A DNA stretch of 64,000 bases from Pseudoalteromonas sp. DL-6. Its GTDB lineage: Bacteria; Pseudomonadota; Gammaproteobacteria; Enterobacterales; Alteromonadaceae. Positions 33,890-58,249 of the stretch are shown in pieces. Position 1 is the first letter of the stretch; every line of letters starts with the position of its first letter. The stretch is taken from the NCBI RefSeq assembly GCF_004328665.1, contig NZ_CP019770.1:1240001-1304000 (forward strand). Reading direction: 5' to 3'. The position numbers and the translations under genes are program-made. The notes below the pieces were generated by a model. It made no database searches and was not told where the DNA came from. It saw only the letters and a program-made list of their open reading frames with translations.

Positions 33890-34447
33890 GTGGCTCGAGG
33901 ACTTAAATTAGCCAGTACATTCTCAGATATATCCACGCAACTGCGACGCTTTGTGTCTAAAATTGTCTTACCCGACGATGTTGATGATATTGTTCAAGAA
34001 ACCTTTGTTAAAAGTTATGAAGCAGAGCTAAAACAGGATATTCAATATACCCGCAGCTATATGTTAAAAACAGCCAAGCACCTCGCCTTGAATCATATAG
34101 CTAAATGGGATAATAAATTTAGTACTCCTTTGAATCACGAAACTGAACTTCCTAAATTGCTCAAATCGATGCAATTAGAAGATGAATACACCTCCAAAGA
34201 GCGTTTTTTACTATTTTGCCGAGCTACTGAGCAATTAAGCCCTGTGGTAAGAAAGTGTTTTATATTAAAAAAAGTATATGGGATGAGCCAAAAAGAGATC
34301 GCACAGCAAATGCAGCTAAGTCAAAGCACGGTAGAAAAGCACATTGCTAAAGGACTATTAAACACCATGCTGTATATGCGCGAGCAAGCGCAAGATGAGA
34401 GTGAGCATGGGCAACAAAGTGCGAGCATTGTGAGGGCAGTAAAATGA
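33890..34447 (+). CDS. FecI-type ECF sigma factor
   Basis: 185 residues, RNA polymerase sigma factor of the extracytoplasmic-function class. Region 2 carries LPDDVDDIVQETFVKSYEAEL (the DDVVQETF pattern). Region 4 carries GMSQKEIAQQMQLSQSTVEKHIAKGL near residues 125-150. GTG at 33890 is the start, with AAGGGA eight bases before it. It overlaps the FecR-like gene (ATGA), and the TonB receptor follows, the classical cell-surface signalling trio. The 286-base upstream spacer contains no other gene and probably its own promoter. Confidence 0.92.
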   Translation: MARGLKLASTFSDISTQLRRFVSKIVLPDDVDDIVQETFVKSYEAELKQDIQYTRSYMLKTAKHLALNHIAKWDNKFSTPLNHETELPKLLKSMQLEDEYTSKERFLLFCRATEQLSPVVRKCFILKKVYGMSQKEIAQQMQLSQSTVEKHIAKGLLNTMLYMREQAQDESEHGQQSASIVRAVK

Positions 34448-35520
34448 ATAACGTCCATCAATTTACTTCAAAAGAATTAATCTTAGAAAAAGCATCGCTA
34501 TGGATAAGCGCGATTGATCGTGGCTTAAGTATACAAGAGCAAGAGCAATTTAAACTATGGATGCTACAAAGCACCGCTCATCAAAATGCGGTATATGAGT
34601 TAGCGCAACTGTGGGACGACTTAAGTGTGCTTAACGAACTTAGCGTATTGTTTCCTAATAAACACTCAGCTGGCATTAAAACCAAGCCTGCCTATGTATA
34701 TGGTATTGCAGCAAGTATTATTGCAGCCTTAATGATGTGTAGCTATTTTTTGATAAACATTGATAGCAACTTTAGCCAAAATTTAGCTAAAGTAAATTAT
34801 ACAAAAATTTATAAAACAAAGGTTGGCGAGCAAGCAACCTATGTTTTACCAGATGGCACAATAGTTCAGCTTAATACCAATAGTTCATTGGAAGTAGCTT
34901 ATAGCCAAGGGCGCAGACAGTTATTACTAAGCCGTGGGGAAGGACGTTTTAACGTAGCTAAAGATGCATCACGACCATTTAGTGTGATGGCGGGTGACAA
35001 AAGCTTTACCGCACTTGGTACAGTATTTAATGTTCAGCGCAATACCTCATCAGATCTCGAGTTGGTAGTCACTGAAGGTAAAGTGATGATCACCGATCCT
35101 AGCGTTGCCGTTAATGCTGACGATTTTAAAGCGTATCAGCAAGCTGATAACAGCAATCACGAAATCCGCCAGATCAATGCCAATATAGTGATATCGGGTG
35201 AAAAAGCTATTATTGAACAGAGCGTTACTAAACCAATTACACAATTATCGGTTGATGACGTACAACGCGATTTAGCATGGCAAAATGGCATGTTGATATT
35301 CAATGGCGAGCAACTGGTTGATGCCTTAAACGAAGTTAGCCGTTATACCGCCACGCGATTTGAACTGTCATCTGATGAATTAGCGCGTATTAAAGTGGCT
35401 GGCGTTTTTAAAGCGGGTGATGTCGCAGGGCTTTTAGAGAGCTTACAAAATAATTTTTCAATTGAGCATGAGCGTTTAGGCGAGCATGTTGTTAGTTTAA
35501 AATATCAAAAAAAGTCATAG
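34444..35520 (+). CDS. FecR-type transmembrane anti-sigma/sensor
   Basis: 358 residues. The N-terminal cytoplasmic DUF4880 domain (EKASLWISAIDRGLSIQEQEQFKLWML) would hold the sigma factor. One membrane helix follows (YGIAASIIAALMMCSYFLI near residue 95). The periplasmic FecR domain begins YVLPDGTIVQLNTNSSLEVAYSQGRRQLLLSRGEGRFNV, and a C-terminal secretin/STN-like segment contains DVQRDLAWQNGMLIFNGEQL and the final strands. Such proteins carry a signal from an outer-membrane receptor to their ECF sigma factor. Start overlaps the sigma gene stop; the receptor begins three bases after its own stop. Confidence 0.93.
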   Translation: MNNVHQFTSKELILEKASLWISAIDRGLSIQEQEQFKLWMLQSTAHQNAVYELAQLWDDLSVLNELSVLFPNKHSAGIKTKPAYVYGIAASIIAALMMCSYFLINIDSNFSQNLAKVNYTKIYKTKVGEQATYVLPDGTIVQLNTNSSLEVAYSQGRRQLLLSRGEGRFNVAKDASRPFSVMAGDKSFTALGTVFNVQRNTSSDLELVVTEGKVMITDPSVAVNADDFKAYQQADNSNHEIRQINANIVISGEKAIIEQSVTKPITQLSVDDVQRDLAWQNGMLIFNGEQLVDALNEVSRYTATRFELSSDELARIKVAGVFKAGDVAGLLESLQNNFSIEHERLGEHVVSLKYQKKS

Positions 35521-35523
35521 GTA

Positions 35524-38500
35524 ATGGTAATGAAAATCACGCCATTGTTAATCAATGTTACTCATAAGGGTTTAAAAAGTAATTTAAAGATTAAAAAAAT
35601 GATAAAAACCTATAGAGGATTTTTGTTTGCTAACTGTTTATATAAGTTGCGCAGTAACCATATGTGTTATTTAAGCCCGTTGGGACTCGTTGCACCGCTG
35701 TTTTTTAGTATCAGTGTGCATGCGAATCAAATCCAGGGGCAAATGATGCAGTTTGATATAAAAGCGCAACGAGCAGACAAAGCCTTAATTGAATTTGCCA
35801 AGCAAACTGAACAAACAGTGGTTTTTTCGTACGAACTTGCTAAACAGTACCAGGCAAATTCGTTATATGGATTTTATTCTCAACTCGATGCGTTAAACGC
35901 ATTGTTAGCTGAGACTGAGCTCGATGCGGTTGTTGATCAAAATGGTTTACTGAGTATTAAACTCAAACAAATCAATAGGAAAGATAACAACATGATGAAG
36001 CTTTCAGGAGTTAGTGCTGCTGTATTACCTGCTTTACTTGCAGTTAATTCACAAGGAATAAATGCCGCTGAACAAAGCGCAGAACAAAACATCGAAAAAA
36101 TTGCTATTGTAGGTAGTCGTGTCGCAGGACGCTCAGTTGAAGACTTACCTGTCCCCGTTGATATTTTAAGTGCAGAAGCACTCGAAAATACTGGTCAAAC
36201 TGAAGTTGGCCGCATGCTTCAAGCTATCGCACCTTCTTTTAACTTTTCAAGTTCATCTATTAGTGACGGTACTGATGCATTAAGACCCGCAACCTTACGT
36301 GGCCTTGGCCCGGATCAAACATTGGTATTGATCAATGGTAAGCGTCGTCATCAAGCCAGTATTATTCACATTAATACTTCTGTTGGTCGTGGTACTGCGG
36401 GTACTGACATGAATGCGATTCCAGCCTCAGCCATTAAACGTATTGAAGTGCTGCGCGATGGCGCTGCGGCTCAATATGGTTCGGATGCAATTGCCGGTGT
36501 TATTAATATCGTGCTAAAAGATGACAGCGAAGGTGGTAAAGCGGCCGTTAACTACGGTGAGTACTCTGAAGGTGATGGCGAAACCGTTAATGTCGACTTT
36601 AATAAAGGCTTTGCTTTAGGTGATAACGGTTATTTAAATACAACTATTAACTACCGTGATCGTGCACCAACTAACCGTGCAGGCCTTCATGGCTCATGTC
36701 AGTTCTATGGCTGTACTGAACTTTCTGATGGTACCTTGCTTGCAGGTGATCCACGCGAATTAACCGCACCACGTGATACATTCAGAATTGGTGATGCTGA
36801 TTCACAACAATTTGGTTTAACAGTTAACACCGGCTACGAATTAGGAGCGGGTGAACTATACGGTTTTATTACCTATTCAACTCGTGATAACGAATCAGCA
36901 GCATTTTTCCGCCATAATGCTAATGCAGGTGGTAACCCGGTACTCCAAGATGGCGATGCAACTATCCCAGCTGGCTTCTTACCTAAAATAAATACCACGA
37001 TTGATGATATTTCCTATAACTTTGGTTATAAAACTGAATTTGATAACGACTCAAGCTTAGATTTATCGTACACCTATGGTGAAAACAGTATTGACTACAC
37101 GACCAGCGATACTATTAACGGCTCTTACGCGAATTTTTTACGTTATGACCAAGGCCTAAGTGCAGCAGATATTCGCGCCACGATTCCACGTCAAGGTTAC
37201 GCTTATGGCATGGAGCTATCACTGCAAACGATCAATCTTGATTTTACTCAAAATTTTGATGACTACTCGTTAGCAATGGGTGCTGAAATTCGTACCGATG
37301 AGTACCGAATTTTAGAGGGTAGTGAATATGCATATCGTGATTACGATACCAACAATGGTGTTAATATTTACGATGGACTAAGCGGTGGTATTGGCAGCGA
37401 AAACGCATCCGGTGGCACACAAGGCTTTGGTGGTTCATCGCCAGCATCTTCGGTTGATGAGTCGCGTGATGTGATCTCATTTTACTTAGATGCTGAAGCT
37501 TACGTTATTGAAGATGTGATTATCTCAGGGGCGTTACGTTACGACAATTATAAAGGGTTTGGCGATACAGTTAACTTTAAACTAGCCGGTAACTGGTCAG
37601 TAACTGAAGATATTTCACTTCGTGGTGCGCTAAGCTCAGGCTTTAGAGCACCTTCAATGCAACAGTTGTATTTTAACAACATCAGCACACAGTTTGTTGT
37701 AGGCCCTAATGGCAATTTAGTGGCTGAAGAAGTAGGGACCTTTAGAAACGATTCAACCCTTGCCCAAAGTTTAGGTATTCCTAAGCTCACAGAAGAGAAA
37801 TCTCAAAACCGCAGTTTAGGTATCGTTTATAACGTAAGCGATAATATTAATGTAACCTTAGATTACTACTCAATCGATATTGACGATCGTATTGTAATTA
37901 GTAATCGCTTAGGTAAAGGCTTATCAAGCAGCCTTGATGCCGCGTTATTAAGCTCGGGTGCAGGTGCAGGGCAGTTTTTCTTAAATGGCGCTGATACTGA
38001 GACACAAGGTATCGACTTTGTTGCTACGTGGAATACAGAAGGCCTAGGCGGCACGCTTGATTTTACTTTAGCGGCTAACTTTACCGAAACCGATGTGGTG
38101 TCGCTATTTACACCAGCAGGCTCTGGCCTTGAAACCGTGCCAGTCGATGATGTGTTTTCTGATCAAGAAATTTCTATTATTGAAGAATGGCAACCAGAAG
38201 ATCGAATTAACTTAAGTGCACTTTATCGTCGCGACGACTGGACCGTAAACCTATCGCTTAACCGTTTTGGTGAGTACACAGTTGAAGATGGCGGCCGCCA
38301 GACTTACGGTGCTGAAATTTTAACGGATATTAAAGTAAACTATTTTGTGACTGATGATTTATCGGTAAATATTGGCGCAAATAACTTATTTGATGTTTAC
38401 CCTGATGAAAACACCATAGGTAATTCACGTTCAGGCACAATTGTGGATGCTCAAGGTAACACCATTGTCAGCAGTGACGGGGTATTTAAGTACTCACGTC

Positions 38501-38562
38501 GTTCAGCGCCATTTGGCTTTAATGGTGCTTACTACTACGTAGGCGCAGAGTACCGCTTTTAA
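35524..38562 (+). CDS. TonB-dependent receptor with STN signalling domain
   Basis: 1012 residues as opened at 35524; in-frame ATGs at 35599 and 35662 could be the real start, since the obvious signal peptide (MCYLSPLGLVAPLFFSISVHA) begins at residue 47. An STN domain follows (about 72-150: FDIKAQRADKALIEFAKQTEQTVVFSY). At residue 157 a second signal-peptide-like stretch begins (MMKLSGVSAAVLPALLA, ending INAAEQ), then a TonB box, plug (PATLRGLGPDQTLVLINGKRRH, VLRDGAAAQYGSDAIAGVINIVLKD) and barrel ending in YVGAEYRF. STN receptors signal substrate presence to FecR. The inner signal-like sequence suggests fusion of a signalling module onto an ordinary receptor, or an alternative start. Confidence 0.92.
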   Translation: MVMKITPLLINVTHKGLKSNLKIKKMIKTYRGFLFANCLYKLRSNHMCYLSPLGLVAPLFFSISVHANQIQGQMMQFDIKAQRADKALIEFAKQTEQTVVFSYELAKQYQANSLYGFYSQLDALNALLAETELDAVVDQNGLLSIKLKQINRKDNNMMKLSGVSAAVLPALLAVNSQGINAAEQSAEQNIEKIAIVGSRVAGRSVEDLPVPVDILSAEALENTGQTEVGRMLQAIAPSFNFSSSSISDGTDALRPATLRGLGPDQTLVLINGKRRHQASIIHINTSVGRGTAGTDMNAIPASAIKRIEVLRDGAAAQYGSDAIAGVINIVLKDDSEGGKAAVNYGEYSEGDGETVNVDFNKGFALGDNGYLNTTINYRDRAPTNRAGLHGSCQFYGCTELSDGTLLAGDPRELTAPRDTFRIGDADSQQFGLTVNTGYELGAGELYGFITYSTRDNESAAFFRHNANAGGNPVLQDGDATIPAGFLPKINTTIDDISYNFGYKTEFDNDSSLDLSYTYGENSIDYTTSDTINGSYANFLRYDQGLSAADIRATIPRQGYAYGMELSLQTINLDFTQNFDDYSLAMGAEIRTDEYRILEGSEYAYRDYDTNNGVNIYDGLSGGIGSENASGGTQGFGGSSPASSVDESRDVISFYLDAEAYVIEDVIISGALRYDNYKGFGDTVNFKLAGNWSVTEDISLRGALSSGFRAPSMQQLYFNNISTQFVVGPNGNLVAEEVGTFRNDSTLAQSLGIPKLTEEKSQNRSLGIVYNVSDNINVTLDYYSIDIDDRIVISNRLGKGLSSSLDAALLSSGAGAGQFFLNGADTETQGIDFVATWNTEGLGGTLDFTLAANFTETDVVSLFTPAGSGLETVPVDDVFSDQEISIIEEWQPEDRINLSALYRRDDWTVNLSLNRFGEYTVEDGGRQTYGAEILTDIKVNYFVTDDLSVNIGANNLFDVYPDENTIGNSRSGTIVDAQGNTIVSSDGVFKYSRRSAPFGFNGAYYYVGAEYRF
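35977..35997 (+). promoter_or_regulatory. Internal ribosome-binding site and start inside the STN receptor
   Basis: AGGAAAG at 35977-35983 lies eight bases before in-frame ATG-ATG codons at 35992 and 35995. Translation from there would give an 856-residue receptor with its own signal peptide but no STN domain. Confidence 0.5.
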
Positions 38563-38589: not shown

Positions 38590-38610
38590 AAAGGGCCGTA
38601 AGGCCCTTTT
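38590..38610 (+). terminator. Terminator after STN receptor
   Basis: AAAGGGCC and GGCCCTTT pair around GTAA and are followed by T-rich sequence, 28 bases after the receptor stop. It separates the signalling operon from phnW. Confidence 0.88.
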
Positions 38611-38684
38611 ATCGTTTTTATAGTTACAGTGTTTATAGTGTCATAAAAACTTCACTGTTTTTAGTTTATGAAATCTTCAATAAT

Positions 38685-38702
38685 ATCTGGACTAGACCAG
38701 AT
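38685..38702. promoter_or_regulatory. Palindromic operator before phnW
   Basis: ATCTGGACTAGACCAGAT is a palindrome with only the central positions unmatched. The core TGGACTAGACCA resembles the TGGTATAGACCA site reported for the GntR/UTRA phosphonate regulator PhnF of mycobacteria. A TAATAT box (38681-38686) abuts it, so a bound repressor would cover the transcription start. phnW begins 16 bases downstream. The GntR gene at 39869-40555 is the likely binder. Confidence 0.75.
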
Positions 38703-38717
38703 TGAGTGAAATAAATT

Positions 38718-39815
38718 ATGAACAATTATTTGCTATTAACGCCCGGCCCATTAACGACCTCTAATACTGTTAAGCAGGCGATGCTTAAAGACTGGTGTAC
38801 TTGGGATGATGATTATAATCGCGACATAGTGCAAACAATACGTAATAAATTAGTATCGCTTGCGACATCACAACCTAATTATACTAGTGTATTAATGCAA
38901 GGCAGTGGCACTGCCAGTGTAGAGTCAGCGCTTGGCAGTCTTATTCCAAAAACGGGTAAGTTACTTGTTATTAATAATGGGGCATACGGGAAGCGTATTG
39001 CTGAAATTGCCGACTATTTAGCAATTGACTGTCATGTTTTAAATTATACAGAAACGGCACTGCCAAACCTTAATGAGATTGATACTGTTTTAAAAAATAA
39101 TTCAGGTATTACTCACATTGCAATGGTCCATTGTGAAACGACCACAGGTATACTCAATCCAATTGAAGAGGTTGGCTCACTAGCTAAAAAGTATCAAAAG
39201 GTATTTATTGTTGATGCTATGAGCAGTTTTGGCGGTATTGAGTTCGACCTAGCACAGTGGCATATAGATGTAATGATCAGCTCTGCAAATAAATGCATTC
39301 AAGGTGTCCCTGGCTTTGGCTTTGTGGTATGTAAGCAGAGTATTATTGAGCAAAGTGAAGGCATTGCGCGCTCCTTGTCGTTGGATTTATATCAGCAATG
39401 GTTATGTATGGAGCAACACCATGGTAAATGGCGTTTTACCTCGCCAACTCATGTTGTGCGTGCATTTTATCAAGCCCTGCAAGAGTTAGATGAGGAAGGA
39501 GGAATAGCAGAGCGCTTTAAGCGTTACTCGCAAAACCAAAAGACTTTGGTAGCAGGTATGAAAGCGTTAGGGTTTGTACCTTTACTGAATGAGGAAGTTC
39601 ATTCCCCCATCATTACCTCATTCTTGTCGCCTAGCGAAGAGCATTATGATTTTAAATCTTTTTACAGTGCGTTAAAGCAAGAAGGTTTTGTTATTTACCC
39701 TGGTAAAGTTTCTAACGCCGATTGCTTTCGCATAGGTAATATTGGTGAAGTAGTTGAGGCCGATATACAGCGTTTGCTTGATGCTGTGGCAAAAAACCAA
39801 TATTGGAAAGCTTAA
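38718..39815 (+). CDS. phnW: 2-aminoethylphosphonate-pyruvate transaminase
   Basis: 365 residues. This PLP enzyme moves the amino group of 2-aminoethylphosphonate (AEP) to pyruvate, giving phosphonoacetaldehyde and alanine. [11 protein letters not shown] at the start, [28 protein letters not shown], the PLP-aspartate in VDAMSSFGG (Asp166) and the Schiff-base lysine in [15 protein letters not shown] (Lys192) match PhnW. Its product is the substrate of phnX on the opposite strand of the same island. Regulated probably through the palindrome just upstream; a terminator follows directly. Confidence 0.97.
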
Positions 39816-39834
39816 AGCTAATTTTCACCCGTGC

Positions 39835-39870
39835 AAGCGGTGCTTAATTTTCATTAAACACCGCTTTTTT
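39835..39870 (+). terminator. Terminator after phnW
   Basis: AAGCGGTG and CACCGCTT pair around a 16-base loop and are followed by TTTT. It lies between the convergent ends of phnW and the GntR gene. Confidence 0.8.
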
Positions 39871-40555
39871 ATTGGCCATCAACCACCATTTCAATGGCAT
39901 TATGCAACCAGTACTCAATGTTATAATCAACTAACAAACCATGCTCATCAAATCGCTTTCTAATAACGTGTAAGCAGGGTGTACCGCTATTTTTTTCAAG
40001 TAGATGACTCACTTCATCAGGTAATACCGTGACATTTATTATGCTTTGCTCATTAACGATATTCGTTGCGTACTGTTTTGCCATAATATCGGTGATAGAG
40101 GTATCTAAGGGGTGTAAGTGAAAATCAGCAAAGCGTTTAGCATCACAATAAATATGCTCAAACATTACGGCGCGATTATCTAGACTACGTATACGTTGAA
40201 GATGATAAAGCGTTTGGGCATCTAACGCTTGGCAAATTTTAAGCTTTGCCTGCTGTTGCACACTCACGAGTGTCGTTTGTGCAACAAATCCTTGTTGTTT
40301 TGCCAATTCATAAAAATTGACTTTAGTAGCAGGGTGCCACTTTAATCTTTTTGGGGTGACAAACCAGCCTTTACGTTTTTGACTGAATATTAGGCCTTCA
40401 GCTTCCAACCTCAGAAGCGCTTCGCGAACAGTAATTCGGGTAGAACTAAACTTTTGTTGTAATTCTCGCTCTGAAGGCAACTTATGACCCGCTGCAATCA
40501 CGTCGGTTTTTAGTAGCGCATGAATATAATTACGGATCTCTTGATATAAAAGCAT
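39869..40555 (-). CDS. phnR: GntR/UTRA-family phosphonate regulator
   Basis: 228 residues from the ATG at 40555; the frame continues upstream to 40672, but the conserved GntR start (LLYQEIRNYIHALL) favours the shorter form. The winged helix has KLPSERELQQKFSSTRITVREALLRLEAEGLI (residues 20-55), and the C-terminal UTRA domain (about 85-225) binds the effector, with HLQRIRSLDNRAVMFEHIYCDA typical of the fold. Related regulators (PhnR, PhnF) control AEP or phosphonate genes. It is the last gene of the minus-strand AEP operon and is the likely binder of the two palindromes at 38685 and 47059. The effector may be AEP or a derivative. Confidence 0.85.
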   Translation of the reverse strand: MLLYQEIRNYIHALLKTDVIAAGHKLPSERELQQKFSSTRITVREALLRLEAEGLIFSQKRKGWFVTPKRLKWHPATKVNFYELAKQQGFVAQTTLVSVQQQAKLKICQALDAQTLYHLQRIRSLDNRAVMFEHIYCDAKRFADFHLHPLDTSITDIMAKQYATNIVNEQSIINVTVLPDEVSHLLEKNSGTPCLHVIRKRFDEHGLLVDYNIEYWLHNAIEMVVDGQ

Positions 40556-40643
40556 CGTTTGATTATTTATCCTAAAAATATAATAGCTTAGCTGAGTATA
40601 ATATGACTTATATTGTTTATGGTGAGCATTATATTCAGCTAGT

Positions 40644-42035
40644 TTATGAATCGACTTTAGCAGCATTGCCACTTAATTTAGCCAAAAAATTATCAATACT
40701 GCGAACTGCTGCATTACTATCTTCTGCGGCCTCTTTACGTCTTATTGCATTACGCACTAAATATGCACCTGCTGTTCGGATGGGTTCAATAGGAAACTGA
40801 TTTAGTGATTGATTAACTAAGCCACAGTTTTGCCACTTAGGATCATTATTGAGTACCATTGCACAGAGAATTTTTGCACCCAAATAAGATTGTACAATGC
40901 CATTGCCAGAGTAGCCACCTGCGTAAAATACATTTTTTTGATTGTTAAGCTGACCAAAGAATGGAAAGCCAGAAACGCTGCGATCGGAAGCGCCCGTCCA
41001 CGTTCGTTCTATGGGTAAGTGATGCCTTTCAAAGAAATAATTGAGTGATGATTTTAAAATATCATCATAGCTGCTCGGCAAATCAAACTTTGGATGTACC
41101 TTATTACAATAACTAAAAAAGTTTCCTCCTTTACCTAACATTAACCGCCCGTCACTGGTGGTCCGGTAGTAATTAACAAACAGACGAGAGTCAATAATAG
41201 CACTGCCGTGATTTAAATTTAGTTGCTCTAAAACTTCTGGGATTGGCTTAGTGATGACCATGTCACTAGAAACCAGTACAACAGAGCGAGAAAATACTTT
41301 ATGTAAACTAGGTAGCCACGCATTAACCGCAAAAATAACTGTATTGGATAATAGGTTCCCCTGACTTGTATGTACGGTTATTTGTTGATCGCCAAAGTGT
41401 TGCATATATTCGCATTGCTCTATTATTGTCACTCCAAGCTGTTGCGCGACTCGCTTTAATCCTCTGACGAGCTTCGCTGGTTGTACACTGCCACCATGTG
41501 CAGAAAAATGAGCAGTGAGGTTTTGCTTTGAACCGGTTTGTTGTAATTGTTGAGTGTCACAAGAATGCCACGAATTAATTTTAAATTTATCTAAGTAATC
41601 AAGCGCGTTACTTAACCGCCCAATTTGACTCGTGTTGGAGGCTGTATAAAAGCATCCATCAATTCGACAATCACAATCAATAGCATAAGTTAGCGTAAAA
41701 CGCTTAATATCATGGACGGTTTGCTCAGATTGTTGTACTAAAAAAAGGGCGTTTTCTAATCCTACTAATTTAATCAGACTGGGTAATTTAGTCGACCATG
41801 TTAACATCGCACCGCCATTACGGCCCGATGCGCCCTGACCACACAACCCTTGTTCAATAATAGTCACTTTTTTTTGGGGCTGCTGTTGCTTGATTTGAAT
41901 GGCGGTCCAAAGTCCTGTAAACCCCCCACCGATAATACAAACATCGGTGTGATGATTTTCAGGAAGTTGAGGAAGAAGTCTATCGGCATCCTCCTCTTTT
42001 ATGGCGCTATCAAACCAAAAAGGTTGATAATTCAT
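40644..42035 (-). CDS. FAD-dependent amine oxidoreductase of the AEP island (PbfD-like)
   Basis: 463 residues of the DadA/glycine-oxidase superfamily. The dinucleotide-binding motif is GGGFTGLWTAIQIK (near residue 35), followed by CGQGASGRNGGAML, the FAD-contact pattern of this family. The C-terminal GxSGSGI-type segment appears as GGYSGNGIVQSYLGAKIL. FAD oxidases next to phnW/phnX genes (called PbfD in the literature) have been linked to oxidation of N-methyl-AEP and related amines to phosphonoacetaldehyde. That role here is inferred from context, not shown. Its start shares an A with the phnX stop (TAATG), so translation is coupled. Confidence 0.85.
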   Translation of the reverse strand: MNYQPFWFDSAIKEEDADRLLPQLPENHHTDVCIIGGGFTGLWTAIQIKQQQPQKKVTIIEQGLCGQGASGRNGGAMLTWSTKLPSLIKLVGLENALFLVQQSEQTVHDIKRFTLTYAIDCDCRIDGCFYTASNTSQIGRLSNALDYLDKFKINSWHSCDTQQLQQTGSKQNLTAHFSAHGGSVQPAKLVRGLKRVAQQLGVTIIEQCEYMQHFGDQQITVHTSQGNLLSNTVIFAVNAWLPSLHKVFSRSVVLVSSDMVITKPIPEVLEQLNLNHGSAIIDSRLFVNYYRTTSDGRLMLGKGGNFFSYCNKVHPKFDLPSSYDDILKSSLNYFFERHHLPIERTWTGASDRSVSGFPFFGQLNNQKNVFYAGGYSGNGIVQSYLGAKILCAMVLNNDPKWQNCGLVNQSLNQFPIEPIRTAGAYLVRNAIRRKEAAEDSNAAVRSIDNFLAKLSGNAAKVDS

Positions 42036-42844
42036 TAAGGACGCTCTCCTCGAGCGAGTCTCGCTTCAATTTGCATTAAAACAGGTTCAATATCAGCTAA
42101 AGAGTCAATCACGAAATGAGCGCCGGCTTGATATAAATGCTGGTATGCTTGACGGGTTAAAACGGCTTGTTCATCGTTTGAGCACGCTGCCCATTCTTGT
42201 TCGGTTAAACCGACTGCATTACCACTTAGGGCAACACCAACAGTCCACATTCCTGCATTTAACCCTTCAGCGATGCCAGGTGCTGAATCGTCAACTTTTA
42301 CACAGTTCGCAACACGTTGAATGCCTAGTGCATTCACGTTTTCAAGTGCCATCCATGGCCCTGGGCGAGAGCCAGCCGTTAGTTCATCACTACCAACGCT
42401 ATGATCGGGTTGGTAACCATATTCAGCGGCAGCCACTTCAAGCACGTCCATCACTTGGCGAGGATAGCCTGAACAGCTGCCAATTTTAATACCTTGCTCT
42501 TTTAAACGCGCTATTACGGGTAATACGCCAGCAATAGGCATAGCACGATCTGCGACTTTAGCTTTTTGTAATGGCATAAAGGTATTGTAAATATGATCTA
42601 TTTGCTCATTAGTCATTGAGCAGCCAAATTGTGCCTGCCAACGAGATTCAATTTCCGGTAATTTACCTAGGGTTGCAATATGGTCCCATTTTCCCATGCC
42701 CATCGGAATACGCGCTTGCGCCAGCGTAATATCAAAATCAAACGCGGCTTTAAATGCCTCCACAAAAATAGTGGTTGGCGCTACAGAGCCATGGTCTACA
42801 ACTGTGCCGGCCCAGTCTAAAATGAGTGCTTCTAAATGTTTCAT
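42035..42844 (-). CDS. phnX: Phosphonoacetaldehyde hydrolase (phosphonatase)
   Basis: 269 residues from the ATG at 42844, which overlaps the permease stop (ATGA) and is preceded by AGAAGAA; the frame is open further upstream but non-conserved there. PhnX cleaves the C-P bond of phosphonoacetaldehyde to acetaldehyde and phosphate. HAD motif I is [15 protein letters not shown] with nucleophile Asp10. The Schiff-base lysine is Lys52 in [11 protein letters not shown], corresponding to Lys53 of the Bacillus enzyme. [25 protein letters not shown] and [21 protein letters not shown] complete the site. Uses the phnW product, closing the pathway. Confidence 0.97.
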
Positions 42845-44172
42845 ATTTCTTCTCTTATATATGTAGGTGTAGATACAGGGTGTAACCTGCGAACTTGTTT
42901 GAAAGGGGATAAGCGCATTACAAAGTAGCTTAGTGAGCACAATACCAAGAATGCAGCGATACAGCCGACCCAGTAACAGGCGTTTATAAAAAAGTTAAGC
43001 CAACTAATCTCAGGCATCACAAAGGTGCGATAGAGTAAGATACTCACCGAGCCCAAATAACCAGCTGAGTCTGCTAAGTAAATTAAAAACCCGGCATTAG
43101 CGGTTGAGCCAACAGCAGAAATCATACGGTCAAATAAGAAGCAATTGTAGGGGATGTAACTAATATAAAGGCCAGCTCCAAGGAGCACCATCCATGCCTT
43201 AGCGTTTAGTAATTGGCTTTCAAACGCAAGAGTACTGCCTACGAACAAGCAGGCACCAAACAAAATGAATCCGTGGTTAACATAAAAAGCGGTTTTATTA
43301 TTTTTTACTAACACCATTGCACCAAGTGCAATCAAGACTATGAATGCCATTCGTATACCTGCATAGGCGAATATAGCTGGCTCTTGGCCATATCCCAGTG
43401 CTTGCCAAATTTCTGCGGCAAAGTTATCGCGAAAGTCACGAAAGCCAGTAAATAATAAGAAACTCAGAATTAAACAACTAATACCAAACCAGTATTGTTT
43501 GAAAAACTGCCAGCGGGCTCTACCATTCATAGGTAAGCGTTGTTGACGCGCCTGCTGATCCTCTGGTGTTGGATTGGGTAACAAGGTTAAACACTTAACA
43601 CTAAGTAACAACAAGGGTAAAAATAACGCTCCGGTTGCGGCAGGCATCCACAGTTCCGGAACATTGAGATTATCTATCAGCCATTTACCGACACTGCGCA
43701 CTAAACCAGACGCCAAAATAAAGGTGACACTGAGAATGGCACCGAGTATCTCAGAAGTTCGTCTGCCTTCTAAGAAACTAAATACAATACCCCAAATCAT
43801 TCCCAACGATAAACCATTAAAAAATAGCCATACTACGTTGACTCCAACAGGGGTAACGGCAAATAAAATTAGCGATAATTCAGCTGCTGTAATCATACCA
43901 ATGATGGCAAGACCTCGTTGTTGGTGCCGCATTTCTGCAATGACCTTAACACCAATAAATTTGGCGCATAAGTAGCCAAATACTTGTGCCAGAATGAGCG
44001 CTATTTTAAAGCTAATTTGCCAACTTGGATCGTCAAACTCTGTATAGCTGTTAGCTGTAAAGGGTTTACGAAATGCATACATACAAAAGTAAGTCATAAA
44101 TGCGGCGCTTGCTGCAAATAGAACAAACCCAACACCGTGTGCACGATGTAGCCACTTTGATTGCGTAAACAT
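42841..44172 (-). CDS. MFS-like DUF5690 permease, candidate AEP importer
   Basis: 443 residues, about 12 membrane helices. The N-terminus [22 protein letters not shown] is characteristic of the DUF5690 branch of major-facilitator-like proteins, recalling the glycerol-3-phosphate/hexose-phosphate permease family (YAFRKPF). Such organophosphate transporters make an AEP or phosphonate substrate plausible. No ABC-type phn/aep transporter is present in the island, so this is the only visible inner-membrane transporter for it. Its stop overlaps phnX; the TonB receptor is 44 bases upstream, so a single operon is likely. Confidence 0.8.
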
Positions 44173-44216
44173 AGGGTTATCCTTCGCGAGGCTTTCGCCC
44201 CGCGTAATACAATAGA

Positions 44217-47033
44217 TTAAAATTGATAATTAATACCGACCATGCCGCGAACACCATAATACTCAACTTGTAACGGGCGATTTTCATCTCCCAAATAATA
44301 TTTAAGCGGCTCGTTAGTTAGGTTATTTAATTCAAGATAAACTAATGCATTTTCGTTAAGCTGGTATGACGTAGTAAAATCAACGCTAACATTTTCGCCA
44401 TAATAGCTATCCGATTGCCGATCACTGCCATGCTCTTCGATGTACTCGCCTTTATAATTTAGGGCAACCCGCGCGGCAAAGGAGCTGTCATCGTAATATA
44501 AGGTAAAGTTATAGAGGTTATCGGCTTGACGCGGAATCGCTACTTTATCGCCACGATCTGGAATATTCATTTGTGAGTCCATAAAGGTCGCATTCACCAT
44601 TACTCCAAAGCTATCTAGAGTCGGATTGATGAAGCCCAAATCGCGATTAAAGGCCATCTCAATACCTGCAAGCCATGCGCTGTCGCCATTTTCTGGGCGC
44701 ACAATATTTACACCACTGTTATCATTAAACTGACCAATTGAGCTACTTTGAAAAATTGGGTCGCTAATGTCCTTGTAAAACAGGCCTGCAGAGACTAAAC
44801 CAACACGTTCAAAGAAATGCTCAACCATCAAATCAACATTATTTGAGTAAGTGGGTTCGAGTTCGGGATTACCGGTAACAAGTTCGTTATCAGCTTCTAA
44901 GTAGGTTGCGCCTGGTGTTAAAGAGCCAAAGTCAGGACGTGAGAAAGAGCGGGTTAATGCTAAGCGGTAGTTGGTTTGCTCGTCGCTGTGATAAGTAACA
45001 TGTAATGCAGGTAACACCGATAGGTAATAATTTTTAGCATGACTTGGTGTAACTCTATCTTCATCAGCTAGGTATGTATAACCATTCACTTCAGTATCGG
45101 TTTGAGTTAGACGTAAACCACCTAGTATTTCCCAGTCGTTATTAATTGTATAGGTTGCCATACCATATAGTGAGGTATGCTGCTCGTTAACATTAAAGTT
45201 ACGTCCTAACGCACCGCCATTTTCAATTAAGGCAGACTCACTTTTATCAAGTACAAATTTGTCTTTATTGGTATTCCAAAACTGCGCTAGATCGCCGGTA
45301 TCAACAACTTGCGAAAATTGCTGTTGGTAATCAATAGCTAATTCATTTAAAAAATCATTGCGGCCTGGCTGATCTGCCAAAGTAAAGTCACTTAAGCTTG
45401 GCGCAGCGCCATAGTTTGCTTCATCCCACGCGTAAAATTCATCGCTAAAGCGCGCGACACGTTCTTTATCACGGTATTTGGCACCTATTTTTACAGTTAA
45501 GTTTGCATCTACTTGCCATTCGAAATCGGCACTCGCGACAATTTTATCTTTCTCATTAACGAATATTTTATATAACTCTACCCATGAAAGATTAGTATTA
45601 GCAGGATCGAACGAAAAATCACTAGGTAAATGGTTACTGATTGCATTCCATGGATCGCTGCCACCATCAATCGTATTATAAGCGTAATTTTTGCCTGTGC
45701 CCCTGTCTTCTAGTCCTTGAAAGCCAACCTGTTTTTGGTCAAATCTGACAACAAAATAACTGTTGTCTTCGCTATTTGGGGTATTGCCATAACGAAATTC
45801 ATTCTCGTAACTTGATAACTTCCAACTAAGAGTTTTGTCATAACCAAAATAATGCTCTGCCTCTAACTCAAGCCCAGTCATTTCGGTAATTAATTCATTG
45901 CGGATATGTTGTACTTCAGCGCGATTTTTATCAAAGCGCATACGATGCTTATAATGTGTTTCGTCATCAATTAAAGTCCCATACATGGCTGTGGCGCTAA
46001 TTGTGCCTTGTTCAAGTTGATACTCAACAGCACCATTAAGCCCATAAGTTTCGCGCGTGCCGGTATAATCTCGTAACTCTAAGCGATAAATGCCTAAACC
46101 ATCATTGCCACGGCGCGGCTCATAGTTATCAGTGGCCCAGTCACGTTGCCACGCAGTCGCATTGATCAAAAAACCTAACTTGTCGTCTAGTAAGCGGTCG
46201 CCGTAAAGTAAGTTTGCTGAATAATTAGTGCCATCGGCAAGCTCATTTTGACCAATTGCAAAATTAGTATTAAACACAAAATCATCGGGCGCTTTTTTAG
46301 TGATAAAATTAACATTACCGCCAATGGCGTCACCTTCAAGGTCAGGGGTTAGCGCTTTCGACACTTCGACAAATTCAATTAATTCACTAGGGAAAAAGTC
46401 AAAAGCTGTTGCTCGACTGGTGGTTTCTTCTTCAGCCGTTGGTAAACGATCGCCGTTAATACTCGCAGAGCTCCACTGTGCCGGTAGACCGCGCACAGCA
46501 ACAAAACGACCTTCACCTTGGTCACGTTCAATCGATACTCCAGGTATACGCTGTACAGCTTCAGCTGCATTTCTATCAGGTAGTTTTCCAATACCGTCAG
46601 CAGAAATAATATTTTTAATACTTTTGGCATTTTTTTGGTTATTAGCTGCCGCCATTTCACCGCGCTGAATTTGGCCGACAGCAATTATTTCTTCAATGGC
46701 GTTATTATTATTTGCAGCAAAAAGAGTGATTGGTTTTAGCTTTTTTATTTCGCCTTCACCAACAGTAATATCAACAAAATAAGGCTGATAACCTAAATAA
46801 GTCACTTTAAGTTGGTGTTTACCAGGATTTAACTGCGGTAACTCAAATTGTCCCTGATAGTTTGTTACGGTACTTTTACCAGTACCAACTACTGTGATTA
46901 ATGCGCCAGAGAGCAGTGATTTACTATCTTCTACAGTGCCTACAAATGTAGCGTTACCGGCAACGGCATCTTGGGCAATAAATAACGGGCTAGTACACAG
47001 TAATATAGCAGTGGCTATTGCATGTCGTTTCAT
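44217..47033 (-). CDS. TonB-dependent receptor of the AEP island
   Basis: 938 residues. A signal peptide (KRHAIATAILLCTSPLFIA) is followed by a carboxypeptidase-regulatory-like beta domain (about 28-105: GALITVVGTGKSTVTNYQGQFELPQLNPG), then IEEIIAVGQI (TonB box-like), plug (ADGIGKLPDRNAAEAVQRIPGVSIERDQGEGRFVAVRGL) and barrel ending GVRGMVGINYQF. This plug type is common in receptors for carbohydrates and other large nutrients in marine gammaproteobacteria. It is the first gene of the AEP operon with the palindrome at 47059 only 26 bases upstream. AEP itself would pass porins, so a larger AEP-containing compound is a plausible ligand (inference). Confidence 0.93.
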   Translation of the reverse strand: MKRHAIATAILLCTSPLFIAQDAVAGNATFVGTVEDSKSLLSGALITVVGTGKSTVTNYQGQFELPQLNPGKHQLKVTYLGYQPYFVDITVGEGEIKKLKPITLFAANNNNAIEEIIAVGQIQRGEMAAANNQKNAKSIKNIISADGIGKLPDRNAAEAVQRIPGVSIERDQGEGRFVAVRGLPAQWSSASINGDRLPTAEEETTSRATAFDFFPSELIEFVEVSKALTPDLEGDAIGGNVNFITKKAPDDFVFNTNFAIGQNELADGTNYSANLLYGDRLLDDKLGFLINATAWQRDWATDNYEPRRGNDGLGIYRLELRDYTGTRETYGLNGAVEYQLEQGTISATAMYGTLIDDETHYKHRMRFDKNRAEVQHIRNELITEMTGLELEAEHYFGYDKTLSWKLSSYENEFRYGNTPNSEDNSYFVVRFDQKQVGFQGLEDRGTGKNYAYNTIDGGSDPWNAISNHLPSDFSFDPANTNLSWVELYKIFVNEKDKIVASADFEWQVDANLTVKIGAKYRDKERVARFSDEFYAWDEANYGAAPSLSDFTLADQPGRNDFLNELAIDYQQQFSQVVDTGDLAQFWNTNKDKFVLDKSESALIENGGALGRNFNVNEQHTSLYGMATYTINNDWEILGGLRLTQTDTEVNGYTYLADEDRVTPSHAKNYYLSVLPALHVTYHSDEQTNYRLALTRSFSRPDFGSLTPGATYLEADNELVTGNPELEPTYSNNVDLMVEHFFERVGLVSAGLFYKDISDPIFQSSSIGQFNDNSGVNIVRPENGDSAWLAGIEMAFNRDLGFINPTLDSFGVMVNATFMDSQMNIPDRGDKVAIPRQADNLYNFTLYYDDSSFAARVALNYKGEYIEEHGSDRQSDSYYGENVSVDFTTSYQLNENALVYLELNNLTNEPLKYYLGDENRPLQVEYYGVRGMVGINYQF

Positions 47034-47058
47034 TATTAGTTTTACCTTAAGTTTATTT

Positions 47059-47070
47059 TGGTCTAGACCA
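47059..47070. promoter_or_regulatory. Palindromic operator before the AEP receptor operon
   Basis: TGGTCTAGACCA is a perfect 12-base palindrome, 26 bases upstream of the receptor start. On the minus strand it is preceded by TAAAATATC, the same AATATC that precedes the phnW copy, putting a -10-like box directly before it. It is almost identical to the site before phnW. Confidence 0.78.
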
Positions 47071-47157
47071 GATATTTTAACTAATAATAGTGATGAATTT
47101 TTACAAACATGTGACGAAACTAATTTTTTTCACAGGAGGGGATTTTTTTAAGGTAAC

Positions 47158-47182
47158 AAAAAGCCCAGCACTAAGGCTGGGC
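47158..47182 (-). terminator. Terminator after the four-helix protein gene
   Basis: On the minus strand GCCCAGC and GCTGGGC pair around a six-base loop and are followed by TTTTT, 20 bases downstream of the stop at 47203. Confidence 0.88.
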
Positions 47183-47202
47183 GGTTATTCTTTGTATTAA
47201 AC

Positions 47203-55027: not shown

Positions 55028-58000
55028 TTATTCAGCATTAAGTGTTTTAGTCATTGCTGAGCTTGCACGACCGGCAGGTTTTACCGAGCCAGGGCGAAGG
55101 CCGCTGTCAGGGATTAACTCGCGTTTGTCATGTGCCATTGCAACCGATGTATGCTTGGTTTCGCTATCAGCTACAGGTGTTGGCTGTGCCATTGGCGCAC
55201 TTGCATGTCCAGCTGTAATCACTGTTTTAGCGTTTACATTACTAGAACTCGCTTGTGAAACAGTTTTAGGTTGGCTTGCAACCACTGGTGCTTCTTTCGC
55301 TTCTACAGGTGTTTCAGTAGCACTAACCGGTGCGGTTTCAGCTTCAACAGCAACTTCTTCAGTTTTTACTGGTTCTTCAGCTTGTACTGGTTCTTCAGTT
55401 TTTACTGGTTCTTTAGCTTTCACTGGTTCTTCAGTTTGTACTGGTTCTTCAGTTTGTACTGGTTCTTCAGTTTGTACTGGTTCTTCAGTTTGTACTGGTT
55501 CTTCAGTTTGTACTGGTTCTTCAGTTTTAACTGGCTCTTCAGTTTTCACTGGCTCTTCAGTTTTTACTGGTTTTTCAGTTTTCACTGGTTCTGCAGCTTT
55601 CACTGGCTCTTCAGTTTTCACTGGTTCTTCAGTTTTCACTGGTTCTTCAGTTTTCACTGGTTCTTCAGTTTTCACTGGTTCTTCAGTTTTCGCTAATTCT
55701 TCCTCAACAATGTTTTGTTCAACTGCATCAGAGGCATCAACGGCCGATTTATGTGCTTTTGCTTTTAGCTCTGCTTCGTATTCAGCAGCGGCTTGATCCG
55801 CAACGGGTACAAACGCAGGCGCTTCATCAGACTTTTCTGGTGCGTTTTCACCTTCAGGGCGACGACGGCGTTGACCTGATGCGCGAAGATGACGTGGTGA
55901 ACGACGTGAACGAGTGCGTGTTTGCTCTTGTTCTTCATCTTGTGCCACAGCGTTATCGTTTGCATCAACAACAGCCTCTGCTTGTTCTTTAGCAGGTGCA
56001 GGTGCTTTTTCATCTGATACTGGCGTTTGCTTTTCAGCAACAGGTGCTTGCTCTTGTACTTGTGGCTTGTCTTCTTTCACCACAGGTTGCTCAACAGCTT
56101 GCTCTGTTGTTTGAACTTGCTCAGCACTTTCGTCTTGTACGCGAACTTTTTTACGTAAATTACGACGTTGGCGACGTACCTTAGGCTTTTGCTCTTTTGG
56201 CTCAGCACTTGCATTTTTGTCAGACTTAGGCGAAGTATCCGCGTTTTGAGTTGCCTCTGCTTTTACTTGCGTTTTATCTTCAGTTTTATGCTCAGGACGT
56301 TTACGCGTATTAGAATTGCGACGGCGCTTATTGCGATTCTCATTCTTTTCTTGCGTATCACCTGCAGGCGCTGACTCATTTTTAGTTTCAGTGTCTGTTG
56401 TACGTTCGTTACGTGGTTTATTACGTGGGTTGTTATTACGACGACGCTGGTTGTTGTTACGGCGACGATTATCACTACCACGATTGTTATTGGTGCGCTC
56501 TTGAGATTTCTTCTCAGAAGACTCTTGTGTTGTTTGCTCGCTTTCGTTTGCAAATAACGACTTAATCCACTTACCCAATGAAGTAAATAAACCAATTTTA
56601 GCTTTTGCTTCTACTACCGGCGCTGCTTTTGCTGCCGCTTGTGGAGCAGGCGTTGAAGGCATAACGACACCTTTAAGCTTCGGCTCTTCACGTACAGGTG
56701 CTGCTGGCGATTTAGACATTTCAAATGCTTCAGGCTCAGGCGCAACAACTTGCTCGTAGCTTACTGTTTCAAGCGTTTCATCTTTACGTAAGCGCATTAC
56801 TTCGTAGTGTGGTGTTTCCATGTGTTGATTAGGAATAATCACTACGTCACATTTGTGATGCTTTTCAATGCGGTGAACGCTACGACGTTGCTCATTTAAT
56901 AAATAAGCGGCAACAGCAACAGGCACTTGTGCATTTACTTGTGCAGTATTGTCTTTAATCGCTTCTTCTTCAATCAAACGTAAAATCGATAGTGCAATTG
57001 ACTCGTTTGAACGAATAGTGCCTTGACCACTACAACGTGGACAAACACCTTGGCTTGCTTCACCTAGTGAAGGGCGTAGGCGCTGGCGCGACATTTCAAG
57101 TAAACCAAAGCGTGAAATTTTACCAATTTGAACACGCGCACGATCTGGGCGAGCGGCATCTTTTAAGCGGTTTTCTACTTCACGTTGATGACGTGGAGGA
57201 GTCATATCAATAAAGTCGATAACAATTAAACCACCTAAGTCACGTAAACGAAGTTGACGTGCAATTTCATCCGCTGCTTCTAAGTTGGTGTTAAGTGCTG
57301 TTTCTTCAATATCGCCGCCTTTTGTTGCTTTAGACGAGTTGATATCGATAGACGTAAGTGCTTCAGTAGGGTCAATAACAATTGAACCACCTGATGGTAA
57401 ACGCACTTCACGTTGGAACGCAGACTCAATTTGGCTTTCAATTTGGTAATGCGTAAATAACGGTGTGTCACCTTGATAAAGCTTAACGCGGCTCATAAAG
57501 TCAGGACGAAAACGCTCAATGTGCGCTTTAGCTTCTTCAAAAACACGTGGTTTATCAATTAAAATTTCGCCAATGTCACGACGTAAATAGTCGCGAATGG
57601 CGCGGAAAATAACGTTGCTTTCTTGGTGAATTAAAAATGGCGCTTTAGCACTGTCTGCCGCTTGTTGAATGGCTTCCCAGTGGACTAATAATGCTTTTAA
57701 ATCGTAGTTTAATTCTTCAAACGATTTACCAACACCCGCAGTACGTACAATCAAGCCCATACCTTTAGGTAGTTCTAAACGGCTAAGCGACTCTTTAAGT
57801 TCAGTACGCTCATCACCTTCGATACGGCGAGAAATACCGCCAGCGCGAGGGTTATTAGGCATAAGCACTAAATAACTACCTGCCACGCTGATAAAGGTTG
57901 TGAGTGCAGCACCTTTTTGGCCACGCTCTTCTTTATCAACTTGTACTATTACTTCTTGACCTTCTTTGATCACGTCGCGAATATTCGGACGACCATGGAA

Positions 58001-58249
58001 GGTGTAACCTTGCGGGAAGTAAGTGCGAGCAATTTCTTTTAATGGAAGGAAACCATGACGATCAGCACCGTAATCAACAAATGCTGCTTCTAAAGATGGT
58101 TCAATGCGTGTGATTTTGCCTTTATAAATATTGGCTTTTTTCTGTTCGTGACCTGGGCTTTCTATATCTAAATCATATAGGCGCTGGCCGTCAACCAGTG
58201 CTACGCGCATTTCTTCTTGCTGCGTTGCATTGATTAGCATACGTTTCAT
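55028..58249 (-). CDS. rne: Ribonuclease E
   Basis: 1073 residues. Essential endoribonuclease and scaffold of the RNA degradosome, peripheral to the inner membrane. The catalytic half (about 1-520) has the S1 domain ([32 protein letters not shown]), the 5'-sensor, the DNase I-like catalytic segment with [47 protein letters not shown], and the zinc link CPRCSGQGT. The C-terminal half is disordered with Arg-rich RNA-binding blocks (near 600-640, 690-700, 800-815) and an 18-unit acidic hexapeptide repeat near residues 855-962. The tail ([23 protein letters not shown]) should hold the partner-binding microdomain. Opposite strand to rluC, as in E. coli. Confidence 0.97.
55364..55687 (-). repeat. 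18-unit hexapeptide (18-base) repeat inside rne
   Basis: 18 tandem units of six residues, mostly TEEPVK or TEEPVQ (a few [24 protein letters not shown]), each encoded by 18 bases. Units 1-9 are mainly the K form and 10-14 all the Q form, indicating stepwise local duplication. Frame is kept since each unit is a multiple of three. Confidence 0.97.

Follow-up and report, generated by a model that had tools for sequence, protein, structure and literature searches.

A mobile phnW-phnX cassette of Pseudoalteromonas sp. DL-6 carries a TonB-dependent receptor and a DUF5690 permease but no ABC transporter

The window analysed here, a stretch of 64,000 nucleotides from Pseudoalteromonas sp. DL-6 (contig NZ_CP019770.1, positions 1,240,001 to 1,304,000; host genome, G000 in our samples, 3.9 Mb), contains a six-gene cassette built around phnW and phnX, the genes of the hydrolytic pathway for 2-aminoethylphosphonate (AEP). 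It also encodes TBDT2, a TonB-dependent receptor, and a permease of the DUF5690 family. phnW is divergent from the remaining genes, which are arranged as TBDT2-DUF5690-phnX-FAD-gntR on the minus strand. The features are as follows, in window positions:

About 38620 to 47196, no strand assigned: the whole cassette, six genes, about 8.6 kb; empty sites in three relatives (L116, L117, L118).
38688 to 38699 (site 38685-38702), no strand assigned: operator copy 1, TGGACTAGACCA, one change from TGGTCTAGACCA; the phnW ATG follows after about 19 bases.
38718 to 39815, plus strand: phnW, 2-aminoethylphosphonate:pyruvate transaminase; TIGR02326 597 bits (cut-off 401), 575 bits to the solved PhnW 9kk8.
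39869 to 40555 (open reading frame, ORF, open to 40672), minus strand: GntR/UTRA regulator of HutC type, PhnR-like; PF00392 and PF07702, TIGR03337 209 bits (cut-off 297).
40644 to 42035, minus strand: FAD amine oxidoreductase (DAO), PbfB-like; PF01266, TIGR03329 583 bits (cut-off 633).
42035 to 42844 (ORF open to 42940), minus strand: phnX, phosphonoacetaldehyde hydrolase; TIGR01422 316 bits (cut-off 220), 227 bits to 3iru.
42841 to 44172, minus strand: DUF5690 permease of the major facilitator superfamily (MFS), proposed inner-membrane AEP carrier; PF18943 514 bits.
44217 to 47033, minus strand: TBDT2, TonB-dependent receptor with a CarboxypepD_reg domain; PF07715, PF00593 and PF13715, TIGR01782 476 bits (cut-off 310).
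47059 to 47070 (site 47056-47073), no strand assigned: operator copy 2, TGGTCTAGACCA, an exact pattern match, with the TBDT2 start about 26 bases downstream.
47163 to 47182, minus strand: terminator-like hairpin, found by pattern scan close to the right cassette boundary.

phnW and phnX lie in one cluster and both exceed their curated cut-offs, which identifies the hydrolytic PhnWX pathway, and TBDT2 has both the plug and the barrel domain. Two assignments are less favourable to a dedicated AEP system: the regulator has GntR and UTRA domains and misses the TIGR03337 cut-off, so it is PhnR-like only, and the FAD enzyme falls below the cut-off of TIGR03329, a family of putative aminophosphonate oxidoreductases, although both proteins match their models strongly. 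The regulator start was set at the position where the family match begins, and phnX likely starts at the ATG at 42844, overlapping the DUF5690 stop codon; the listed GTG would add 32 residues. None of the six genes encodes an ABC transporter, no SusD match was found among the six proteins, and Pfam and TIGRFAM searches with the island's proteins returned no ester hydrolase or phosphodiesterase. An earlier note, made from the letters of the window, had described phnW, phnX, an FAD oxidase, a GntR/UTRA regulator, DUF5690 and a TonB receptor in 8.4 kb without an ABC transporter; all of these are present where it had placed them. The interval that it gave, 38685 to 47070, has an operator copy at either end and falls a short way inside the cassette boundaries.

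The cassette boundaries are given by three relatives that lack phnX (G296, G301 and G287; loci L116-L118), whose alignment to the window runs through 38634 and restarts at 47197, leaving an empty site between flanks of 88-96% identity. The two alignments overlap by 17 bases in what is a weak match, and the left end is therefore placed at about 38620. Because these relatives skip exactly the interval of about 38620-47196, the six genes form one unit. G291 (L129) carries the island, with 96.8% identity across 19.5 kb, and blocks of the six-gene type are found amid differing neighbours in other Pseudoalteromonas, in Thalassotalea and in Colwellia: the block is one mobile, horizontally moved unit. 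The hairpin at its right end is assigned by position only, as the window holds 11 terminator-like hairpins against 11.8 expected in shuffled sequences.

The receptor is inherited together with phnX. Among 108 genomes of the genus (thresholds E<=1e-50 for phnX and E<=1e-120 for TBDT2, with eight best first-look receptor candidates scored per genome), phnX was detected in 35 and TBDT2 in the identical 35, always beside phnX on one contig, and in 0 of the 73 genomes without phnX. This distribution shows that the adjacency is not due to chance. In a sample of 394 genomes of the order, where two candidates were scored per genome, TBDT2 was found in three (G000, G112 and G464), each with phnX and DUF5690, and no match was found in the remaining 66 of the 69 phnX carriers. 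Absence of the receptor from most relatives with phnWX, which the earlier note had named as speaking against its reading, thus does not hold in the genus, where 35 of 35 carry it, but does hold in the order, where an orthologue is present in 3 of 69 phnX carriers. DUF5690 was present in four of 197 order genomes, three with phnX and one (G113) without. TBDT2 is a genuine member of the cassette, inherited and moved with phnW and phnX. In some genomes the receptor gene is interrupted: it is split in G267 and L017 and has an internal stop in G241, while phnX has no stop in G267 and G241. This may reflect decay of TBDT2 or sequencing error.

Each of the two divergent units is preceded by an operator copy. 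A 15-base pattern of this operator, searched on both strands, matches five times in the 64 kb against 0.75 expected, and four of the five matches fall at the two operators. The exact 12-mer TGGTCTAGACCA occurs once in the available part of a paper on NagR dre sites (PMC4333415). We then asked how the site is distributed in relatives, using the best 80 of 569 DUF5690 relatives, a set that leans to Pseudoalteromonas, and adding L102 and L110 to give 82 loci for a survey of 8-kb neighbourhoods; 75 were counted and seven without a DUF5690 call were dropped (L058, L059, L065, L066, L068, L069, L073). Labels for receptors, phosphodiesterases and other genes in these loci came from home-made HMMs with seeds partly checked against Pfam. 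Gammaproteobacteria account for 33 of the 40 receptor-bearing DUF5690-PhnX loci, and at 32 of these 33 a site matching at least 11 of 12 bases lies within the 250 bases before the nearest receptor; at the exception, L017, the receptor ORF is split and its upstream piece bears the site. Among unlabelled ORFs of the same 33 loci the rate is 8 of 287 at 11/12 and 12 of 287 at 10/12, while 24 of the 25 PhnW genes in gammaproteobacterial DUF5690-phnX islands have a site of at least 10/12. With all loci counted (excluding L001-L010, L109, which is the same as L036, and L116-L118), sites at 10/12 precede 39 of 48 PhnW, 39 of 86 receptor, 5 of 14 phosphodiesterase, 14 of 86 DUF5690 and 37 of 1100 other genes.

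Two points weigh against the breadth of this signal: many of the sites come from closely related species and so are not independent, and, of the DUF5690-PhnX loci with a receptor, the seven that are not from Gammaproteobacteria show no operator in front of it (L056 and L064 from the alphaproteobacterial Asticcacaulis; L074, L079, L085, L087 and L088 from Bacteroidota). In view of these seven loci the link between operator and receptor is gammaproteobacterial. In the window, TBDT2 is apparently co-regulated with phnW and phnX through this predicted palindrome of HutC/NagR type.

These observations bear on another reading, in which TBDT2 serves iron or siderophore uptake and adjoins phnX by accident. 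The TBDT2 superfamily does include siderophore receptors, and its only relatives among sequences of solved structures are two colicin I receptor chains, matched in the plug region. However, TBDT2 follows phnX in its 35 of 108 genus genomes and occurs in just 3 of the 394 order genomes, lies inside the cassette and has an operator in common with phnW. We therefore rejected it as an iron receptor or chance neighbour, a reading to which we give hardly any weight.

A comparison with other phnX regions of the order shows what the receptor accompanies. Twenty such regions were hand-picked from 19 genomes among the 69 phnX carriers. The three of DUF5690 type (L102, L109, L110) all have a TonB receptor, whereas the receptor HMM found none in the 17 without DUF5690, 16 of which contain at least one gene of an ABC cluster; one region (L092) shows neither receptor nor ABC genes. 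Pfam searches with one example of each identified the ABC-cluster proteins as a solute-binding protein, an ATPase and a permease. Of the 17 regions without DUF5690, 12 have an ABC gene with a site of 10/12 or better in front of it, and 11 of their 13 PhnW genes have an operator-like site. As ABC regions and TonB/DUF5690 islands share this type of site, it seems that one regulatory signal is kept while the importer module is swapped between an ABC system and a TonB receptor plus DUF5690.

TonB receptors raise the periplasmic supply of small sugars in some Proteobacteria. By analogy, TBDT2 could import free AEP or N-methyl-AEP, raising its periplasmic level for a low-affinity MFS carrier, and no larger substrate would be needed; we hold this to be nearly an even chance. 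The pairing of receptor with MFS-type importer in three of three regions, set against 0 of 17 receptors where 16 regions have ABC genes, fits this proposal, as do the lack of an ester hydrolase in the window's island and the 37 TonB plug matches across the host genome, which indicate that such receptors are common here. It is less easily reconciled with DUF5690-phnWX loci of Photobacterium, Endozoicomonas (L041, 4.2 kb) and Oleispira that show no receptor. These belong to nine of 49 DUF5690-PhnX loci without a TonB receptor within 8 kb (L037, L039, L040, L041, L042, L054, L062, L075, L081), although some are short or cut, such as the Endozoicomonas contig, and L081 has a SusC-like gene just past the 8-kb limit. 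The nine count against receptor and permease as a fixed pair: DUF5690 can probably work without a receptor, and TBDT2 is probably not obligatory for DUF5690-PhnX loci.

The related islands also point to larger substrates. Genes for type I phosphodiesterases (PF01663) have their own operator copy 34-55 bases from the start in P. arctica (L011), Microbulbifer (L050 and L051), Cellvibrio (L052) and L110. In L102, a DUF5690-PhnX locus, and in Bowmanella L048, which has DUF5690 and a Phn-HD gene but no PhnX, a phosphodiesterase gene lies on the same strand as an operator-led TonB receptor, downstream of it. The N-termini of these enzymes, read by eye, are mostly signal- or lipoprotein-like, and some phosphodiesterases in related islands bear hemopexin, laminin-G or PA14 modules. 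A phosphodiesterase query gave a single weak match of no relevance. Other DUF5690 loci contain phospholipase C, PhoD-like or purple acid phosphatases, mostly near a TonB receptor. In the Bacteroidota loci L079, L085, L087 and L088, SusC/SusD lie beside DUF5690, an FAD enzyme of TIGR03364 type and a PhnX-like hydrolase, the one in L085 belonging to TIGR03351; L085 and L087 have a PA14-type phosphodiesterase, and L079, L085 and L087 a gene of a metalloenzyme or phosphodiesterase family. Within the DUF5690 locus set, SusD was seen solely at Bacteroidota loci.

Taken together, these loci favour ester-bound phosphonate as the food of the wider DUF5690 class. TBDT2 may then import ester-bound AEP such as phosphonolipid or phosphonoglycan fragments, with envelope or secreted phosphodiesterases freeing the AEP, and the islands would be phosphonate-ester utilisation loci; we regard this as a serious possibility, to be held tentatively. 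It is suggested by the PF01663 genes under the common operator, by the phosphodiesterases downstream of operator-led receptors and by the Bacteroidota loci that join SusC/SusD and a metallo- or phosphodiesterase gene with DUF5690, FAD enzyme and PhnX-like hydrolase, and the import of free AEP leaves the operator-linked enzymes unexplained. Against it stand the lack of a phosphodiesterase in the window's island, the finding that the two PF01663 genes of the host genome are not close relatives of the operator-linked ones, and the rarity of the P. arctica enzyme (L011:9513-11582, with its own operator, between phnW and a Fec-like receptor), which is present in just 1 of the 108 genus genomes. Of 14 genes labelled as phosphodiesterases, only 5 have their own operator, and if the enzyme works outside the cell the receptor need only import free AEP. 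The larger AEP-bearing compounds proposed by the earlier note are thus backed by five related loci and find no counterpart in the window's own island; for that island we consider free AEP and AEP esters about equally likely.

DUF5690 is the only inner-membrane transporter in the window's island, and the nearest named relatives of the protein come from Pseudoalteromonas. Its structure model (pLDDT 86) matches the MFS fold over the whole chain, and the nearest solved fold is that of G6PT/SLC37A4, from the organophosphate:phosphate antiporter family. The MFS-like permease of the earlier note can accordingly be described more closely, as a protein whose modelled fold resembles an organophosphate antiporter. 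GlpT, a member of the same group, binds phosphate through R45 and R269, and in a weak alignment the invariant R35-K36 of DUF5690 aligns with GlpT R45-K46. At sequence level the resemblance of DUF5690 to GlpT is weak, with an hhalign probability of 18-32%, and in the weak alignment the invariant R245 sits four residues past GlpT R269. The DUF5690 profile gave no match to sequences of solved structures, and global hhalign of DUF5690 against GlpT, UhpT and UhpC gave no alignment.

At least one phosphonate enzyme is encoded within 8 kb at 62 of the 75 DUF5690 loci. PhnX is absent nearby in 26, of which 13 have another phosphonate enzyme and 13 have none. These last 13 leave room for DUF5690 as a phosphate exporter or UhpC-like sensor, with AEP entering otherwise, and phosphate freed by PhnX would need export; its place as the island's only inner-membrane transporter and the phosphonate enzymes at 62 of 75 loci make this unlikely. 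In the genus, DUF5690 was found in 43 of 108 genomes, eight of them without phnX, with second copies in four. A specific role in AEP uptake is challenged by the twelve genus DUF5690 places that lie apart from phnX. Ten were retrieved (L119-L128), and in these gntR and DUF5690 are divergent from a different TonB receptor, with no phnX; by similarity (Pfam on examples), all ten have a PhoD-like gene and eight have genes of the alkaline-phosphatase superfamily. Since these phnX-free places sit with phosphatases and another receptor, DUF5690 may serve several organophosphorus compounds and may carry other organophosphates too.

Two further kinds of DUF5690 locus were noted. Five loci without PhnX (L061, L072, L076, L084, L090) each have DUF5690, a Phn-HD gene and phospholipase C; four of the five have a LysR gene and a TonB receptor and three a PhoD-like phosphatase. 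They are a possible oxidative counterpart of the island. In L070, L077, L078, L083, L086 and L089, with no phosphonate enzyme nearby, DUF5690 lies right behind a PHP-domain protein of HisJ kind, a name taken from a relative in L054.

The FAD amine oxidase of the earlier note can be narrowed to a PbfB-like enzyme: it shares 48% identity across 460 aa with an FAD enzyme from V. vulnificus, not necessarily PbfB WP_049798008. According to the available part of PMC10590968, extracts of cells expressing V. vulnificus PbfB, combined with PhnX, released phosphate from N-methyl-AEP and not from AEP. N-methyl-AEP is therefore a likely second substrate, to judge from this family resemblance. Between the FAD gene and gntR, 14 of 26 loci (L011-L035, L053) have a Phn-HD gene (TIGR03276, PhnZ-like; for example L013:13542-14102), which scored under the TIGR03276 cut-off in the examples tested. 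No hydroxylase partner was noticed beside these genes, which would suggest direct use of hydroxy-AEP.

Computation establishes the gene content, cassette boundaries, co-inheritance and operator conservation, and with these in hand we think it probable that the cassette, as a unit moved horizontally, is induced by substrate and serves the use of AEP, and probably N-methyl-AEP, with uptake by TBDT2 and DUF5690. TBDT2 would take an AEP compound across the outer membrane, energised by TonB, and DUF5690 would carry AEP across the inner membrane, plausibly in exchange for phosphate. By analogy with known families, PhnW would form phosphonoacetaldehyde from AEP and the PbfB-like oxidase would form it from N-methyl-AEP, and PhnX would cleave this intermediate, releasing acetaldehyde and phosphate. 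Until substrate is present, the GntR/HutC protein would repress phnW and the TBDT2-DUF5690-phnX-FAD-gntR unit at TGGTCTAGACCA. That a substrate is brought in across both membranes and converted to acetaldehyde and phosphate was the central proposal of the earlier note, and co-inheritance, the shared operator and the empty site support it.

More broadly, and with clear reserve, DUF5690 could mark an undescribed class of loci for the harvest of ester-bound phosphonates and phosphates, present in Proteobacteria and Bacteroidota at the least. Such loci would combine a TonB or SusCD importer, a secreted phosphodiesterase, phospholipase C or phosphatase, a DUF5690 antiporter and varied C-P cleaving enzymes. 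The window would hold a reduced form, TBDT2 taking an AEP ester or AEP. In polysaccharide utilisation loci an outer-membrane TonB importer is grouped with a hydrolase, a permease, enzymes of catabolism and a local regulator. DUF5690 islands likewise bring together a TonB importer, which in Bacteroidota relatives is SusC/SusD, with permease, enzymes and regulator, and some relatives add a secreted hydrolase; the islands differ in the phosphonate cargo and in hydrolases that, where present, are phosphoesterases, and the window lacks SusD and such a hydrolase.

The island shares phnW, phnX and a GntR-type regulator with the PhnW-PhnX pathway of Vibrio/Salmonella type, and a similar operator before PhnW and ABC genes with its relatives in the order; it differs in that a TonB receptor and DUF5690 replace the ABC importer. 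A further parallel is the PF01266 enzyme within a phnWX cluster, as described for the FAD oxidases PbfB, PbfC and PbfD in the available part of PMC10590968. The accessible part of PMC8316502 describes AEP uptake by ABC systems and by AepP, an MFS importer beside AEP genes; going by that description AepP is GlpT-related, as the fold suggests for DUF5690, which is however a separate Pfam family. In the parts available, a review (PMC10574752) presumes porins for the outer membrane, and phnWX is reported in marine Pseudoalteromonas (PMC9381506). TonB is absent from the main texts of these four papers, and that of PMC10590968 does not mention DUF5690 either. The word DUF5690 was not found in the literature searched, and the titles and abstract beginnings examined held nothing on point for phosphonate or AEP with TonB, SusD, phosphonolipid or ceramide AEP. 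The pathway is known; the uptake arrangement is a variant not found in the literature searched.

With a TonB receptor that is inherited and apparently regulated together with phnW and phnX, passage across the outer membrane would become a controlled step of AEP uptake. DUF5690 would gain a function, and together with phnX or Phn-HD it would be a marker for phosphonate users that ABC-based surveys would miss. Phosphonolipids are a bound AEP pool in marine animals, and their fate would become testable by gene deletion.

Directly before the cassette and outside its empty-site boundary lies a set of Fec-like signalling genes:

33890 to 38562, plus strand: ECF sigma factor, FecR and a second TonB receptor, TBDT1.

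We rejected this set as a member of the system, as TBDT1 lies outside the cassette and 41 of the 50 genomes that have it, among the 108 of the genus, lack phnX. A terminator-like hairpin at 38590-38609 follows TBDT1, and the cassette starts just behind it. Elsewhere in the window, repeats inside a 1073-aa ORF (55028-58249, minus strand) give shifted matches with relatives at 55355-55702.

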